Positions 37,101 through 42,010 of a DNA stretch of 42,980 bases are shown piece after piece. The notes beneath the pieces were generated by a model. It was not told the origin of the DNA. It saw only the letters and a program-made list of their open reading frames with translations, and ran no database searches. Positions within the stretch are counted from its first letter, which is position 1; every line of letters begins with the position of its first letter. The DNA comes from a virus. The translations under genes and the position numbers were made by a program. The DNA lies in IMG/VR virus record IMGVR_UViG_3300027754_000180, positions 1 through 42,980 of that record, one strand, 5' to 3'.

Positions 37101-37129
37101 TTGCGTTATCCTTTGTAGTGTACTATCTT
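37101..37129 (+). promoter_or_regulatory. Early promoter P1
   Basis: TTGCGT (37101-37106) and TATCTT (37124-37129) are spaced by 17 bases, followed by AGTAACAG. The -35 and spacer start are repeated at P2 (TTGCGTTATCCTTTG). A hairpin AACAGA...TCTGTT (37133-37153) begins four bases after the -10. Confidence 0.5.
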
Positions 37130-37237
37130 AGTAACAGATCACATGATTCTGTTTGATCAACTTCGCAAGTGCTGCGGACATTGCGCTCCGACTCCTGCTT
37201 GGCTGATTCATTCGGTTCTGGGATCTGGTAGAAAACT

Positions 37238-37408
37238 ATGGAAATGAAGAACTACAGCAAGGATGTCGCGGGTTTTCGCTGCGAGAAAAATGGCAAGTGT
37301 GTTTTTGTGCTCGAGCGCCAAATGGCGCACGACCCGCAATACAAGGTCGGCTCAAAAATCCCGGGCCGTGGCAAAGTCGTTGAATGTTTTGGCAAGGGGC
37401 AGCAGTAA
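37238..37408 (+). CDS. 56-residue early protein, hypothetical
   Basis: The product begins MEMKNYSKDVAGFRCEKNGK and ends with a short basic tail. It contains VFVLERQMAHDPQYKVGSKI. It lies between promoters P1 and P2, so it is the first gene of the plus-strand early region. There is no strong Shine-Dalgarno site; an ATG two codons later is an alternative. It has a compact, charged composition and is not recognised. Confidence 0.55.
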   Translation: MEMKNYSKDVAGFRCEKNGKCVFVLERQMAHDPQYKVGSKIPGRGKVVECFGKGQQ

Positions 37409-37415
37409 TCGGCCC

Positions 37416-37444
37416 TTGCGTTATCCTTTGCAGTGTGCTAAAGT
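37416..37444 (+). promoter_or_regulatory. Early promoter P2
   Basis: TTGCGT (37416-37421) and TAAAGT (37439-37444) are 17 bases apart, followed by AGTGAATG. The -35 and most of the spacer match P1. GTTCC/GGAAC (37459-37474) makes a small hairpin downstream. Confidence 0.5.
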
Positions 37445-37872
37445 AGTGAATGTAGTTTGTTCCTGTCACGGAACGTGAGATAGTCTGGTGCGCTCACGCA
37501 AAGTGATTCGGTTCGATTGATCTTTAACATATGCGGCTCAAACCGCAATCTCTCGGGGAGACGAACCCCGACACCACACGTCGAATACCTCAAAATTTCA
37601 CGTTGCGGTGGTTTACGATATCCCAGACAGTCTAGTGCGTTGGGAGCGGCGGGCCACGGCAAATAGATATCAGGGTATGGGGCGAAGTGGGGAGTAGTCG
37701 AAACGTGGTGGTAGGCGTTTTGGCGAAGGGGAAAATGGGACAAGTAAACGCTCACCGATAGCGTGCTGATAGCAAGGCGAATTGATCGGGAACGTGGTAT
37801 CGAACGAATACCCTACGCTGTAGCCATACGTGGCCATAGCGCAGGATATCGGATTGATCCGGTAATTTTTGA
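37445..37872 (+). other. Intergenic block with RNA-structure potential
   Basis: No convincing gene is seen here, apart from a weak 34-codon frame at 37529. TCGGGG (37553-37558) pairs with CCCCGA (37566-37571). ACCGCAA just upstream can pair with TTGCGGT downstream, so a branched structure is possible. The block is transcribable from P2. Whether it is a leader, an ncRNA or an origin is unknown. Confidence 0.3.
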
Positions 37873-37901
37873 TTGCATTCTGACGAAGTAAGCTATACAG
37901 T
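37873..37901 (+). promoter_or_regulatory. Early promoter P3
   Basis: TTGCAT (37873-37878) and TACAGT (37896-37901) are 17 bases apart. The 18-base sequence TTTTGATTGCATTCTGAC at 37867-37884 is repeated exactly at P4 (39738-39755). An alternative -10, TATACA, overlaps at a shorter spacing. Confidence 0.5.
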
Positions 37902-37907
37902 GGTATC

Positions 37908-37926
37908 TGACACTTTGGAGGTGTCA
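37908..37926 (+). promoter_or_regulatory. Leader hairpin with Shine-Dalgarno loop, H1
   Basis: TGACAC (37908-37913) pairs with GTGTCA (37921-37926) around the loop TTTGGAG. The GGAGG Shine-Dalgarno site for the GTG at 37930 lies in and beside that loop. It starts six bases after the P3 -10. P4 has a different stem around the same loop. Confidence 0.5.
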
Positions 37927-37929
37927 CAA

Positions 37930-38631
37930 GTGACAACAAAAATCGAACTATTGTCGGTCGAATCCGACGCCAAGACAATCAAAGGCAACAAGAAAGGGTA
38001 CCTAACGGGTATCCTGTATTTGGCACCATCTACCGAAGCGGGCGGACGTGATTTGTGCCCTATGGCATCCGCAGAATGTCGTTTGGCATGCCTGTATGGC
38101 GCGGGTATGGCAGGGGTCTTTCCATCCATCAAGCGGGCCCGGATTGCGAAAACTTTGTGGTACCTGCGAGATCCGAAATCGTTTATGGCAGCACTTGAGA
38201 CCGATATCTATCGGTTGATCGTTCTGGCTGCCAAGCGCAATCTCAAGCCCTGCGTCCGTCTCAATGGCACTTCAGACGACCCGAAATTGGCTCGGGCCTT
38301 GGCTGCTAAGTTTCCGGAAGTTCAGTTCTACGACTACACGAAGTTGCTCAAACCGTGGAAACGTGTGACGGCAAATTATCACCTGACGTTCTCATTTTCA
38401 GGTACTAATTTGCCAGCGTGCATGGATGCGCTCGCGCATGGTATCAATGTCGCGGTCGTTTTCGCTGGTACGCTGCCTGCTACATGGAACGGGTACCCGG
38501 TTATCAATGGCGACGAATCTGACCTCCGTTTCCTCGATCCCGTTGGCGTCATTGTCGGGCTGTCAACCAAAGGTGACGCGAAGAAACTGGACACGGGTGG
38601 GTTTGTTCAGATCGGAGGCGCGGCAGCGTAA
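37930..38631 (+). CDS. Gp88-like phage protein
   Basis: The frame is open from 37873, but GGAGG at 37917 sets the GTG at 37930 as start, giving 233 residues. GYLTGILYLAPS, LCPMASAECRLACLYGAGM and PSIKRARIAKT are the conserved N-terminal features of Gp88-family proteins found in many actinophage and other phages, with a Cys motif (CPMASAECRLAC) that may bind a metal cluster. VRLNGTSDDP and FYDYTKLLKPWKRV follow, as in the family. Function unknown; it is the first gene behind P3. Confidence 0.78.
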   Translation: MTTKIELLSVESDAKTIKGNKKGYLTGILYLAPSTEAGGRDLCPMASAECRLACLYGAGMAGVFPSIKRARIAKTLWYLRDPKSFMAALETDIYRLIVLAAKRNLKPCVRLNGTSDDPKLARALAAKFPEVQFYDYTKLLKPWKRVTANYHLTFSFSGTNLPACMDALAHGINVAVVFAGTLPATWNGYPVINGDESDLRFLDPVGVIVGLSTKGDAKKLDTGGFVQIGGAAA

Positions 38632-38642
38632 TCGCAGAGTGG

Positions 38643-38656
38643 AGCCCCACGGGGCT
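38643..38656 (+). terminator. Weak hairpin after the Gp88-like gene
   Basis: AGCCCC and GGGGCT form a short stem with a tiny loop, followed by TTTAAT. A second hairpin, ACAGG...CCTGT, lies at 38669-38686. It could be a weak terminator or mRNA 3' end. Confidence 0.35.
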
Positions 38657-38707
38657 TTAATGCGGCGGACAGGTCACAAGCCCTGTTAGAGCATTTGGAG
38701 GCAATAT

Positions 38708-39064
38708 ATGGACAATAGTTTTTTTACGAATCAGCTACTTCAAATCGGGAAAAATTTGGCTGTACCGCCAAAAACTGGACCATTTCCTGGCCACGCTCGC
38801 TGTTCTGAATGCGGCACAGGAAACAACAACGACTGGCTTACCGAACTGTTCGCCAATTCCCCTATTCGTTCAACTCAAGAAATTGCCCGGTCTAACGAAG
38901 CGGCTCACGCTGCCCACGTTGCAATGGTTGCGGCCAGCAAGAAGGAATCAGACGCAAGGAAGTGTGGCAAGTGCAACGGTACGGGCACTGTCTACTACTA
39001 CGCGCACCACAAGGGCGGTGAGTGCTTCCGCTGCGGCGGCACGGGCCGTAAGGCGGTGGCGTAA
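38708..39064 (+). CDS. Protein with DnaJ-type zinc finger
   Basis: The product has 118 residues. CGKCNGTGTVYYYAHHKGGE and CFRCGGTG give two CxxCxGxG motifs, the DnaJ-type zinc finger. An earlier CSECGTG may add to it. The N-terminal part is unremarkable, and the middle is helical. TTTGGAGG precedes the ATG. It is probably a zinc-binding accessory protein; a chaperone role is not implied by the finger alone. Confidence 0.7.
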   Translation: MDNSFFTNQLLQIGKNLAVPPKTGPFPGHARCSECGTGNNNDWLTELFANSPIRSTQEIARSNEAAHAAHVAMVAASKKESDARKCGKCNGTGTVYYYAHHKGGECFRCGGTGRKAVA

Positions 39065-39255
39065 TGACGAACATGAAAACGAGCTACGAAACGAAGTTGG
39101 AGAAGTACCGTGCCACCTGTATCAATATGGCGCGGCTGGAAGTGGTAACCCTCAAGTTTTACATCGCGAGCGGTTGCCCTAACACTGCGGCACAGTTCGC
39201 AGCACGGGCAGCACGCTGGTATTTTTCAGCGTACCCGGAAGCTCGGGAAAATTAG
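39064..39255 (+). CDS. Small hypothetical protein
   Basis: The product has 63 residues and overlaps the previous stop as TAATG. It is helical, with aromatics (ARLEVVTLKFYIASGCP, RAARWYFSAYPEA). Not recognised. Confidence 0.6.
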   Translation: MTNMKTSYETKLEKYRATCINMARLEVVTLKFYIASGCPNTAAQFAARAARWYFSAYPEAREN

Positions 39256-39267
39256 GAGATCAAGACA

Positions 39268-39657
39268 ATGGCCTACATGAATCAAGACAAGAAAGCTGTT
39301 ATCGCAGCGCAACTGAAGAAAGTAGTTCCGGCGGGGTGGAAGTACTCGCTGCGGGTACACAACCATTCAACCCTGGTACTCACTGTGCAATCCGCTCCGG
39401 TGGATCTGTGTAATACAGTCCCGGCGGTGGATCGGCGGTACCCAATCGACAACGCTAACGGGTATCGGCAACTCAATACGTACCATCTCGACTATGAAAT
39501 GTCCGGCGAATTGCTGGCCACCTTCGAGGCTATCAAGGATGCCATGAACCTGGGCAACCATGACAACTCAGATCCTCAAGTTGACTATTTCGACGTGGGC
39601 CACTACGTCAGCATCCATATCGGCGCGTGGGATAAGCCGTTCAGGGTGGTAGCGTAA
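39268..39657 (+). CDS. LPD29-like domain protein
   Basis: The product has 129 residues after GGAG. It contains SLRVHNHSTLVLTVQSAPVD, a central Asn/Tyr-rich part, then NLGNHDNSDPQVDYFDVGHY and VSIHIGAWDKPF. These are the elements I associate with LPD29, a large-polyvalent-protein domain (a small alpha-beta fold with a DNSDxxxDYFDVG motif). Here it is a stand-alone protein. Its role in phages is not known. Confidence 0.65.
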   Translation: MAYMNQDKKAVIAAQLKKVVPAGWKYSLRVHNHSTLVLTVQSAPVDLCNTVPAVDRRYPIDNANGYRQLNTYHLDYEMSGELLATFEAIKDAMNLGNHDNSDPQVDYFDVGHYVSIHIGAWDKPFRVVA

Positions 39658-39737
39658 TGCTCCGCGCCATCGCATATGTGGCCCTCTGGGCCGCGGTAGT
39701 CGCCACCTGGGCGACGGTATTTTATATCATCGACTAG
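39657..39737 (+). CDS. 26-residue membrane peptide
   Basis: A single hydrophobic helix is evident (MLRAIAYVALWAAVVATW, then ATVFYIID). It starts by TAATG overlap with the previous gene. It has the same form as the 29-residue peptide at 33331. A role in host membrane modification is possible. Confidence 0.55.
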   Translation: MLRAIAYVALWAAVVATWATVFYIID

Positions 39738-39743
39738 TTTTGA

Positions 39744-39772
39744 TTGCATTCTGACATCTCAGGGTGTAACGT
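39744..39772 (+). promoter_or_regulatory. Early promoter P4
   Basis: TTGCAT (39744-39749) and TAACGT (39767-39772) are 17 bases apart and followed by AGTAACGG. The 18-base upstream sequence is identical to that at P3. Confidence 0.55.
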
Positions 39773-39779
39773 AGTAACG

Positions 39780-39796
39780 GGTACTTTGGAGGTACC
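39780..39796 (+). promoter_or_regulatory. Leader hairpin with Shine-Dalgarno loop, H2
   Basis: GGTAC (39780-39784) pairs with GTACC (39792-39796) around TTTGGAG. The ATG at 39800 follows at normal spacing from GGAGG. The stem sequence differs from H1 but the pairing and loop are preserved. Confidence 0.5.
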
Positions 39797-39799
39797 AAC

Positions 39800-40045
39800 A
39801 TGGTCGCAATAACAGGCAATACATCCGTACGGGCTGAACTGCACGCACTGGGCGGACAGTGGGATAAGGCGGCAAAGGCGTGGATGGTACCGGAGCATAA
39901 CGCGGCTGCCGCTGCTGCCCTTGCTGCTGGGGGGCTGCGGAAAGTTGGCGGACGGTCGCGGGGGTATCTCGGCACCGACCGTTATGGCTGCGCTCATTTC
40001 GGCACGCCCTGCCGCTGCGAAGACTATCCGTGCTGCGGACATTAG
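39800..40045 (+). CDS. Small protein with GGxWD/AWMVP-type domain
   Basis: The product has 81 residues. TSVRAELHALGGQWDKAAKAW then MVP is a domain seen repeatedly in phage and plasmid proteins (a short alpha-beta module with ALGGxWD and KxWxVP). A Cys/His-rich C-terminus (CAHFGTPCRCEDYPCCGH) probably binds zinc. GGAGG precedes the ATG in H2. Function unknown. Confidence 0.65.
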   Translation: MVAITGNTSVRAELHALGGQWDKAAKAWMVPEHNAAAAAALAAGGLRKVGGRSRGYLGTDRYGCAHFGTPCRCEDYPCCGH

Positions 40046-40053
40046 GAGCGGAC

Positions 40054-40293
40054 ATGGAAACATTTACAGTTCGAGTTGGCGACCGTGTCGCCTATAGCGC
40101 GAAATGGTTGCAGTCTACCGGGCAGGTTGCCGGGGACATTGGGCACGCTCGTGGTGTGGTGGTGGCTCTCGAGTCCACCACGCCCGACTGGACCTTGGCA
40201 ACAATCCAGTGGGGTAACGGGGAATTCCCTGACCGCGTCAATGTGGCGAACCTTGCCATCGTTGGGGCGAACTCGAGGTTCTGCGCGATATGA
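40054..40293 (+). CDS. KOW/SH3-like small protein
   Basis: I chose the ATG at 40054 (METFTVRVGDRVAYSAKW) because AGGAG lies upstream; the frame opens at 40030. The product has 79 residues. VGDRVAYSAKWLQSTGQVAG, RGVVVAL, LATIQWGNG and RVNVANLAIV form the five-strand pattern of small SH3/KOW-like phage proteins. It is coupled to the next gene by ATGA. Role unknown. Confidence 0.62.
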   Translation: METFTVRVGDRVAYSAKWLQSTGQVAGDIGHARGVVVALESTTPDWTLATIQWGNGEFPDRVNVANLAIVGANSRFCAI

Positions 40294-40487
40294 CACACGA
40301 GAGCTACATCTACCACGATTACAGCACCAACCACGCGCCACAGTCCGGCATGCTGCGTTTCCAGCACCATCAGCAGGCGGAGCAGTGGGCTTCACGGGCA
40401 AACCTTGACGGCCCCGTGTCGGTGCTGGTCTATAACTGCATTTACGGGTTCGCTCCGGCGGCTCAGATGACTTTGGAGGTGAGGTAA
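40290..40487 (+). CDS. Small hypothetical protein
   Basis: The product has 65 residues and overlaps the previous gene as ATGA. Its His/Tyr/Gln-rich N-terminal half includes YIYHDYSTNHAPQSG and FQHHQQAEQWASRA. The C-terminal half is beta-like (VSVLVYNCIYGF). TTTGGAGG near its end serves the next gene. Not recognised. Confidence 0.6.
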   Translation: MTHESYIYHDYSTNHAPQSGMLRFQHHQQAEQWASRANLDGPVSVLVYNCIYGFAPAAQMTLEVR

Positions 40488-40754
40488 ATGGAAAAATACA
40501 GCGTAGTTGTCGAGTCCGGCTCATGCAGTCAGGACTATAAGAGATGGGAGGAGCGGGCGCACTGCGGCCATGCTCACCGCACTATCGAGGCGGCAACAGC
40601 CTGTCTGGCCAAGCTCACCCGGCGGTTCTGCCAGCACGGCAGACCGCAGGGTACATCGTGCCGCCACTGTCTCGGTCGAGCGCAGGGGTCCAGCATGTCG
40701 GCGCAGTGGTTTGGCGCAACTCTGCACAATCAGGATGGGGAGCGGGTGTCCTAA
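40488..40754 (+). CDS. Small Cys/His-rich protein
   Basis: The product has 88 residues. RAHCGHAHRTIEAATACLAK, FCQHGR and SCRHCLGR provide Cys and His residues suited to zinc binding. The first part (KYSVVVESGSCS) is a strand. TTTGGAGGTGAGG precedes the ATG. Not recognised. Confidence 0.6.
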   Translation: MEKYSVVVESGSCSQDYKRWEERAHCGHAHRTIEAATACLAKLTRRFCQHGRPQGTSCRHCLGRAQGSSMSAQWFGATLHNQDGERVS

Positions 40755-41829: not shown

Positions 41830-41883
41830 CGCACCAACGCCCACGTTCCGGGCAGGAGCATGGGCGTCAGGTGTGCCGGTTAA

Positions 41884-41904
41884 GGCTGCGCTTTGGAGGC
41901 AGCC
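41884..41904 (+). promoter_or_regulatory. Hairpin with TTTGGAG loop, H3
   Basis: GGCTGC (41884-41889) pairs perfectly with GCAGCC (41899-41904) around GCTTTGGAG. It is the third hairpin presenting TTTGGAG with an unrelated stem. No promoter of the P3/P4 type is seen just upstream, and the next ATG is 18 bases past the Shine-Dalgarno site. Confidence 0.4.
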
Positions 41905-41917
41905 CCAGCATAGCATA

Positions 41918-42010
41918 ATGCAGCATGATGGCGTGGCAGCGGGTAATTTGGAACTGTTGCACGCGCAACGTTTATGTGGTACCGTTAGACACAGGAGATA
42001 CAGACGATGA
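41918..42010 (+). CDS. Possible 30-residue coupled peptide
   Basis: A frame from ATG 41918 (MQHDGVAAGNLELLHAQRL) ends by ATGA overlap with the large gene at 42007. It also covers promoter P5. The overlap argues for translation, and the promoter argues for a leader only. Undecided. Confidence 0.3.
   Translation: MQHDGVAAGNLELLHAQRLCGTVRHRRYRR
41957..41985 (+). promoter_or_regulatory. Early promoter P5
   Basis: TTGCAC (41957-41962) and TACCGT (41980-41985) are 17 bases apart, matching the TTGCRY and TAMMGT pattern of P2-P4. It sits directly before the AGGAG and ATG of the gene at 42007. Confidence 0.45.

Follow-up and report, generated by a model that had tools for sequence, protein, structure and literature searches.

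Short hairpins around the Shine-Dalgarno sequence recur before unrelated early genes of mosaic phages

Two early genes of a phage are each preceded by a short perfect inverted repeat that holds the Shine-Dalgarno (SD) sequence around the same seven bases, which raises the question of whether these repeats work as RNA, as DNA, or not at all. The window, meaning the whole stretch of DNA that was analysed, is a linear viral (phage) contig of 42,980 bases in which the terminase genes lie on the minus strand and small plus-strand open reading frames (ORFs) run from about 37.2 kb. Both inverted repeats around TTTGGAG given in a preliminary description of this DNA are present on the plus strand: hairpin H1 (TGACAC-TTTGGAG-GTGTCA, positions 37908-37926), with a perfect 6-bp stem, and hairpin H2 (GGTAC-TTTGGAG-GTACC, 39780-39796), with a perfect 5-bp stem. 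A start codon follows each after 3 nt. Behind H1, GTG at 37930 opens a plus-strand ORF of the GP88 family (37930-38631; PF17338, 128.9 bits; phrog_1617), and behind H2, ATG at 39800 opens a plus-strand ORF of 81 aa (39800-40045), the product of which has weak similarity to DUF5710 (PF18974, E = 1e-4, below the cut-off).

An 18-nt block, TTTTGATTGCATTCTGAC, is found in identical plus-strand copies upstream of H1 (37867-37884) and H2 (39738-39755), at equal distance from TTTGGAG (45 nt from TTGATT), and each copy includes a -35-like TTGCAT (37873-37878 and 39744-39749). The -10-like hexamers read from the sequence, TACAGT (37896-37901, +) and TAACGT (39767-39772, +), each begin 17 nt after TTGCAT and end 6 nt before H1 and 7 nt before H2, respectively. 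The earlier placement of both hairpins 6-7 bases after a -10 element is therefore correct as to spacing, but the elements themselves are weak, and a consensus promoter scan found nothing at 9/12 or better. With promoters so weakly consensus-like, locating the hairpins at +1 is only a guess.

Bare TTTGGAG is not enriched, with 7 sites in the window against 5.7 expected. When the motif is required to be closed by at least five perfect pairs, two sites are found against 0.017 expected from Markov-shuffled windows, in a test that is post hoc, its pattern having been picked after the fact. As an internal contrast, the SD of the ORF at 40488-40754, ACTTTGGAGGT (40470-40480, +), has no hairpin. An Rfam search returned no family for H1 or H2, comparison with sequenced phages found no DNA similarity for the H1/H2 region, and the two 51-nt elements gave chance-level matches only against the same phages.

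Relatives were collected by three routes. An exact 16-mer of the upstream block had 13 matches in viral contigs, one of which is a true relative, G001 (contig L052); a scan for the hairpin core identified G005 (L071) together with G006 (L078), which is a close copy of G005; and protein-based scans added G010 (L106) and G011 (L108), neither of which has the hairpin. G001 and G005 contain five further copies of TTTGGAG within inverted repeats, for a total of seven in three phage lineages, with few relatives bearing the hairpin. G001 has GACAC-TTTGGAG-GTGTC followed by ttacATG and GGTAC-TTTGGAG-GTACC followed by agaaATG, while G005 has TGACAC-TTTGGAG-GTGTCA followed by caaGTG and, in two copies termed H2a and H2b, GGTAC-TTTGGAG-GTACC followed by aaaaATG. 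Thus, the same two stems, GACAC/GTGTC and GGTAC/GTACC, are used throughout, and the start codon lies 3-5 nt downstream in all seven copies. The exact 19 nt of H1 are common to G005, with the 5-bp version in G001, and the exact 17 nt of H2 occur once in G001 and twice in G005. G001 is also identical to the window over the 30 nt preceding H2, and the -10-like TAACGT is retained in G001 and in G005 H2a.

The genes behind the hairpins differ. At least five unrelated ORFs are preceded by the element, which each genome has on two or three early genes. The 81-aa ORF behind H2 has a homologue in G001 with the same hairpin ahead of it, and in G005 the genes behind H2a and H2b are different again. In the H1 slot, the GP88 gene of the window is replaced in G001 and G005 by a gene for a protein without significant BLASTP similarity to GP88, the two replacement proteins being 87% identical to one another. 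None of 46 viral loci with other GP88 genes has a TTTGGAG hairpin ahead of the gene, so the hairpin is not a feature of the GP88 family. Beyond the relatives, occurrences of GACACTTTGGAGGTGTC and GTACTTTGGAGGTAC in viral contigs are mostly not ahead of a start codon. Two related phages contain GTAC-TTTGGAG-GTAC with a 4-bp stem (L081 803-817, plus strand; L084 5271-5285, minus strand), four bases ahead of the ATG of an ORF that begins MALKV; this may be an independent occurrence.

Conservation is confined to the hairpin itself. The 19-nt core of H1 is 100% identical in the window and G005, whereas the flanking 30-nt blocks, compared without gaps, are about 13-40% identical (13-23% upstream and 37% downstream), and G005 H2a and H2b likewise share a 100% identical core between unrelated flanks. 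In an alignment of the seven leaders the stem is retained in 88% of cells: three pairs are invariant, two have both partners substituted (A-U to G-C and C-G to U-A), and the outermost pair is retained in only 2 of 7 copies. The pairing score of 0.381 compares with 0.212 in shuffles, 3 of 500 of which scored as high, and the pairing is lost when the register is shifted by one to three columns. The preliminary description took the change of stem with pairing kept as covariation-like evidence. Retention of pairing is borne out by the seven copies with their two stems, but the covariation is thin: both changed pairs split the same two stem classes and could reflect a single event, and with two pairs and one class switch the covariation appears supportive but weak.

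The predicted folds of the isolated hairpins have energies of -7.3 kcal/mol (H1) and -5.8 kcal/mol (H2), with z-scores of -2.8 and -2.9, and persist when 45-50 nt of downstream sequence are added. RNAfold places a U-A pair and a U.G pair across the 7-nt loop as drawn, leaving a UGG triloop. Only GGAG of the SD lies within the drawn loop; the full GGAGGU spans the loop and the 3' arm, and in 7 of 7 leaders its GG is predicted to be open, its A partly paired, and its last GGU mostly paired. The suggestion that the loop presents GGAGG was therefore overstated, as the fold exposes mainly UGG(A). With the SD half paired, the fold does not predict simple enhancement of initiation through a GGAGG presented in the loop.

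Self-cleaving ribozymes are predicted in the same junctions. In the window, a Twister-P5 ribozyme (RF02684; 38633-38685, plus strand; 58.7 bits, gathering cut-off 37.6) lies directly behind the GP88 ORF and upstream of an SD, TTTGGAGG, at 38694 and an ATG at 38708. In G005, a Twister-P5 (54.4 bits) is immediately upstream of H2b, with no recognisable promoter. Because H2b stands behind a ribozyme and not behind a recognisable promoter, this copy argues for a role as RNA over one as a DNA operator. G005, G001, G011, and G010 have predicted type-II hammerheads that overlap the SD or lie directly ahead of it. The G005 hammerhead scores 38.2 bits, above the 37-bit cut-off, and those of G001 (36.8), G011 (33.0), and G010 (31.2) fall slightly below it with E values of 0.0004-0.013 but retain the CUGAUGA and GAAAC core; the cleavage-site triplet in G011 is GUA. 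The SD is part of the hammerhead core, CUGAUGAGGAG, behind which the start codon follows, and stem II (CUCC/GGAG) pairs with the SD, so that cleavage could free it. Ribozymes of these two classes before starts map to L071 135-187, L071 2003-2059, and L101 4303-4359 on the minus strand and to L108 2663-2718 and L106 4162-4218 on the plus strand. Cleavage by Twister-P5 and hammerhead ribozymes leaves a 5'-OH end. In prophages, single genes flanked by multiple hammerheads are known, and the role proposed for these ribozymes is to divide long transcripts into mRNAs of gene length (PMC3088659).

Comparison of the early regions gave 27 short homology islands of 110 nt or less, of which 12 coincide with a hairpin or a ribozyme; 0.6 would be expected, and none of 2000 random placements reached as many. 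The hairpin islands are partly ascertained, since it was the hairpin that first led to G005, but the hammerhead islands of G010 and G011 are free of this bias because both contigs were identified from their proteins. In the H1 slot, the gene bodies of the window (37930-38631) and L071 (2294-3052, minus strand) are without significant similarity, and the two genes have in common the hairpin on the 5' side and, at the 3' end, 20 nt that encode QIGGAAA; one gene appears to have been swapped for another between these short conserved borders. It is possible, though we regard it as doubtful, that the early region of this phage group consists of gene cassettes with interchangeable small RNA leaders at their junctions, be it the SD hairpin, Twister-P5, or the type-II hammerhead, the core of which encloses the SD. 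Each leader would then supply the gene behind it with a separate mRNA 5' end and a site of initiation, and the shared leaders would double as places of cassette exchange.

The hairpins are real, and from their unchanged recurrence before unrelated genes in relatives they are probably working pieces of mRNA. The best-supported reading is that H1 and H2 act as RNA, as leader hairpins that carry the SD and are used repeatedly ahead of genes unrelated to each other. The earlier claim of RNA structure at the ribosome-binding site finds support in the seven copies from three lineages, the two stems, the unrelated flanks, and the ribozyme-linked copy. A more specific proposal, which we favour only tentatively, is that H1 and H2 are copies of one portable leader and ribosome-binding hairpin that would protect the mRNA 5' end and standardise initiation. 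On this proposal, the element would be a short hairpin making up most of the leader of unrelated early genes in mosaic phages, and in the copies with a promoter the transcript would start at or beside the hairpin's first base. Hairpins at the 5' end can make an mRNA more stable, and they impede RppH (PMC3997798). An mRNA structured in this way at its 5' end would be a poor substrate for 5'-end-dependent decay by RppH and RNase E, and the hairpin would keep the initiation site constant and locally folded regardless of the coding sequence behind it, with the 30S subunit capturing the exposed GGA and melting the stem of 5-6 bp. Elsewhere, a self-cleaving ribozyme would stand in the hairpin's place at the junction and give a 5'-OH end before the SD, in keeping with a separate, protected mRNA 5' end for every early gene. 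As the hairpin would impede RppH and the ribozyme would leave a 5'-OH, both leader types would blunt 5'-end-dependent decay. Several points count against the proposal: the promoters are weak, a half-paired SD would by itself be expected to lower initiation, H2b of G005 is not 5'-terminal, there are two stem classes only, with one effective covariation event, and relatives with the hairpin are few.

The main rival to a leader function is that the hairpin is the target of an RNA-binding regulator. In this translational operator, a phage or host protein would read the loop UUUGGAG on a generic stem and block or time initiation of several early genes together, in the manner of CsrA/RsmA or phage translational repressors. 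In favour of this are a strictly conserved loop on a variable stem, an SD inside the site, and the sharing of the element by two or three early genes in each genome. The hairpins also resemble CsrA/RsmA sites in holding GGA in a small hairpin loop with AC/GU closing pairs and in overlapping the SD. However, the CsrA SELEX consensus is RUACARGGAUGU, with an ACA-R-GGA core mostly in a 6-nt loop and an ACA that is 100% conserved among the selected ligands (PMC7652899), whereas the hairpins have ACUUUGGAGGU, with ACU in place of ACA, in a 7-nt loop on a longer stem; extra loop nucleotides lower RsmE affinity. No CsrA-family gene is present in the five phage records, and the conservation of the loop is explained simply by its being the SD. 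We therefore consider a translational operator conceivable but rather improbable.

The remaining readings fare less well. Perfect dyads 6-7 bp after -10-like hexamers, near a duplicated 18-nt promoter block, could be a DNA operator that overlaps the transcription start and is contacted on both arms by a dimeric regulator, and symmetric changes in the arms would fit such a site. This is made less likely by half-sites that vary (GACAC and GGTAC) around an asymmetric centre, TTTGGAG, that never does, and the fixed start-codon spacing of 3-5 nt and the position of H2b also speak against it; we judge it unlikely. Much the same weight goes to the idea that the shared junction sequences are landing sites for gene exchange, with RNA structure a by-product. 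The homology islands do sit at cassette junctions, and the body of the H1 gene appears to have been swapped between conserved ends, but recombination leaves perfect pairing with two different stem sequences and the tight placement around the SD unexplained, and 17-27 bp is short for host recombination. Least probable by far is chance, in which two instances of a common SD, TTTGGAGG, happen to have inverted-repeat flanks. In bacterial genomes, 8 of 80 matches to G..ACTTTGGAGGT..C....ATG are fully paired against 5 expected, a rate near chance, which indicates that such hairpins are no general feature; this is compatible with coincidence, but the excess of paired TTTGGAG in the window and the exact recurrence in two more phage lineages before different genes already disfavour it.

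H1 and H2 are best described as a variant of known leader and ribosome-binding hairpins. Like the leaders of ompA and papA in Escherichia coli and aprE in Bacillus subtilis, they are short stem-loops at a presumed 5' end near a strong ribosome-binding site. In textbook E. coli stabilising leaders such as that of ompA, the ribosome-binding site is free and the SD lies outside the hairpin, whereas H1 and H2 hold the SD in the loop and 3' arm and occur as one hairpin type ahead of several unrelated genes. They share with the type-II hammerhead and Twister-P5 ribozymes of phages and prophages a position ahead of the starts of unrelated genes in mosaic regions, although the SD hairpin has no catalytic core. 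Short conserved sequences between exchangeable genes also mark the boundaries of lambdoid mosaic phages, but in the present phages a paired RNA element that surrounds the SD forms the boundary. Two other kinds of element, N4-type hairpin promoters and lambda boxB/nut-like sites, were set aside for their different loop size or position, and because H1 and H2 have a ribosome site inside. Interest in the element grows if its interchange with ribozymes at cassette junctions holds. If the leaders are interchangeable, these phages would be a small natural experiment on how unrelated, freely exchanged genes stay translatable in a mosaic genome, with a short RNA module standardising the 5' end and ribosome site, and the many orphan ribozymes beside phage genes would gain a concrete job. 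As a protein target, on the other hand, the element would mark an undescribed post-transcriptional regulon in phages.

Several other features of the region were observed. Between a 57-codon ORF (37238-37408) and H1 lie about 500 nt without an obvious gene (37409-37907); this stretch contains inverted repeats rich in GC and matches no Rfam family. A duplicated promoter-like block, CTTGCGTTATCCTTTGYAGTGTRCTA, with TTGCGT-17-TATCTT or TAAAGT, occurs at 37101-37132 and 37416-37447, and a related version is found upstream of H1 in G001. The ORF at 40290-40487 (region 40285-40476) is absent from G001 and lies between two ATGAC repeats, with ATGACTTTGGAGG at the start of the second; we read this as gene gain or loss at an SD. 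A hairpin at 41884-41904 around GCTTTGGAG was not counted as a further copy, as it has no good nearby start (the next SD-bearing ORF begins at 42007), a predicted fold no better than shuffles, and a stem mismatch in G001 and G005. It is the second of two successive hairpins at 41838-41904, CGCCCA..TGGGCG and GGCTGC-GCTTTGGAG-GCAGCC, in the gap before that ORF, and this double hairpin is largely conserved in G001 and G005.
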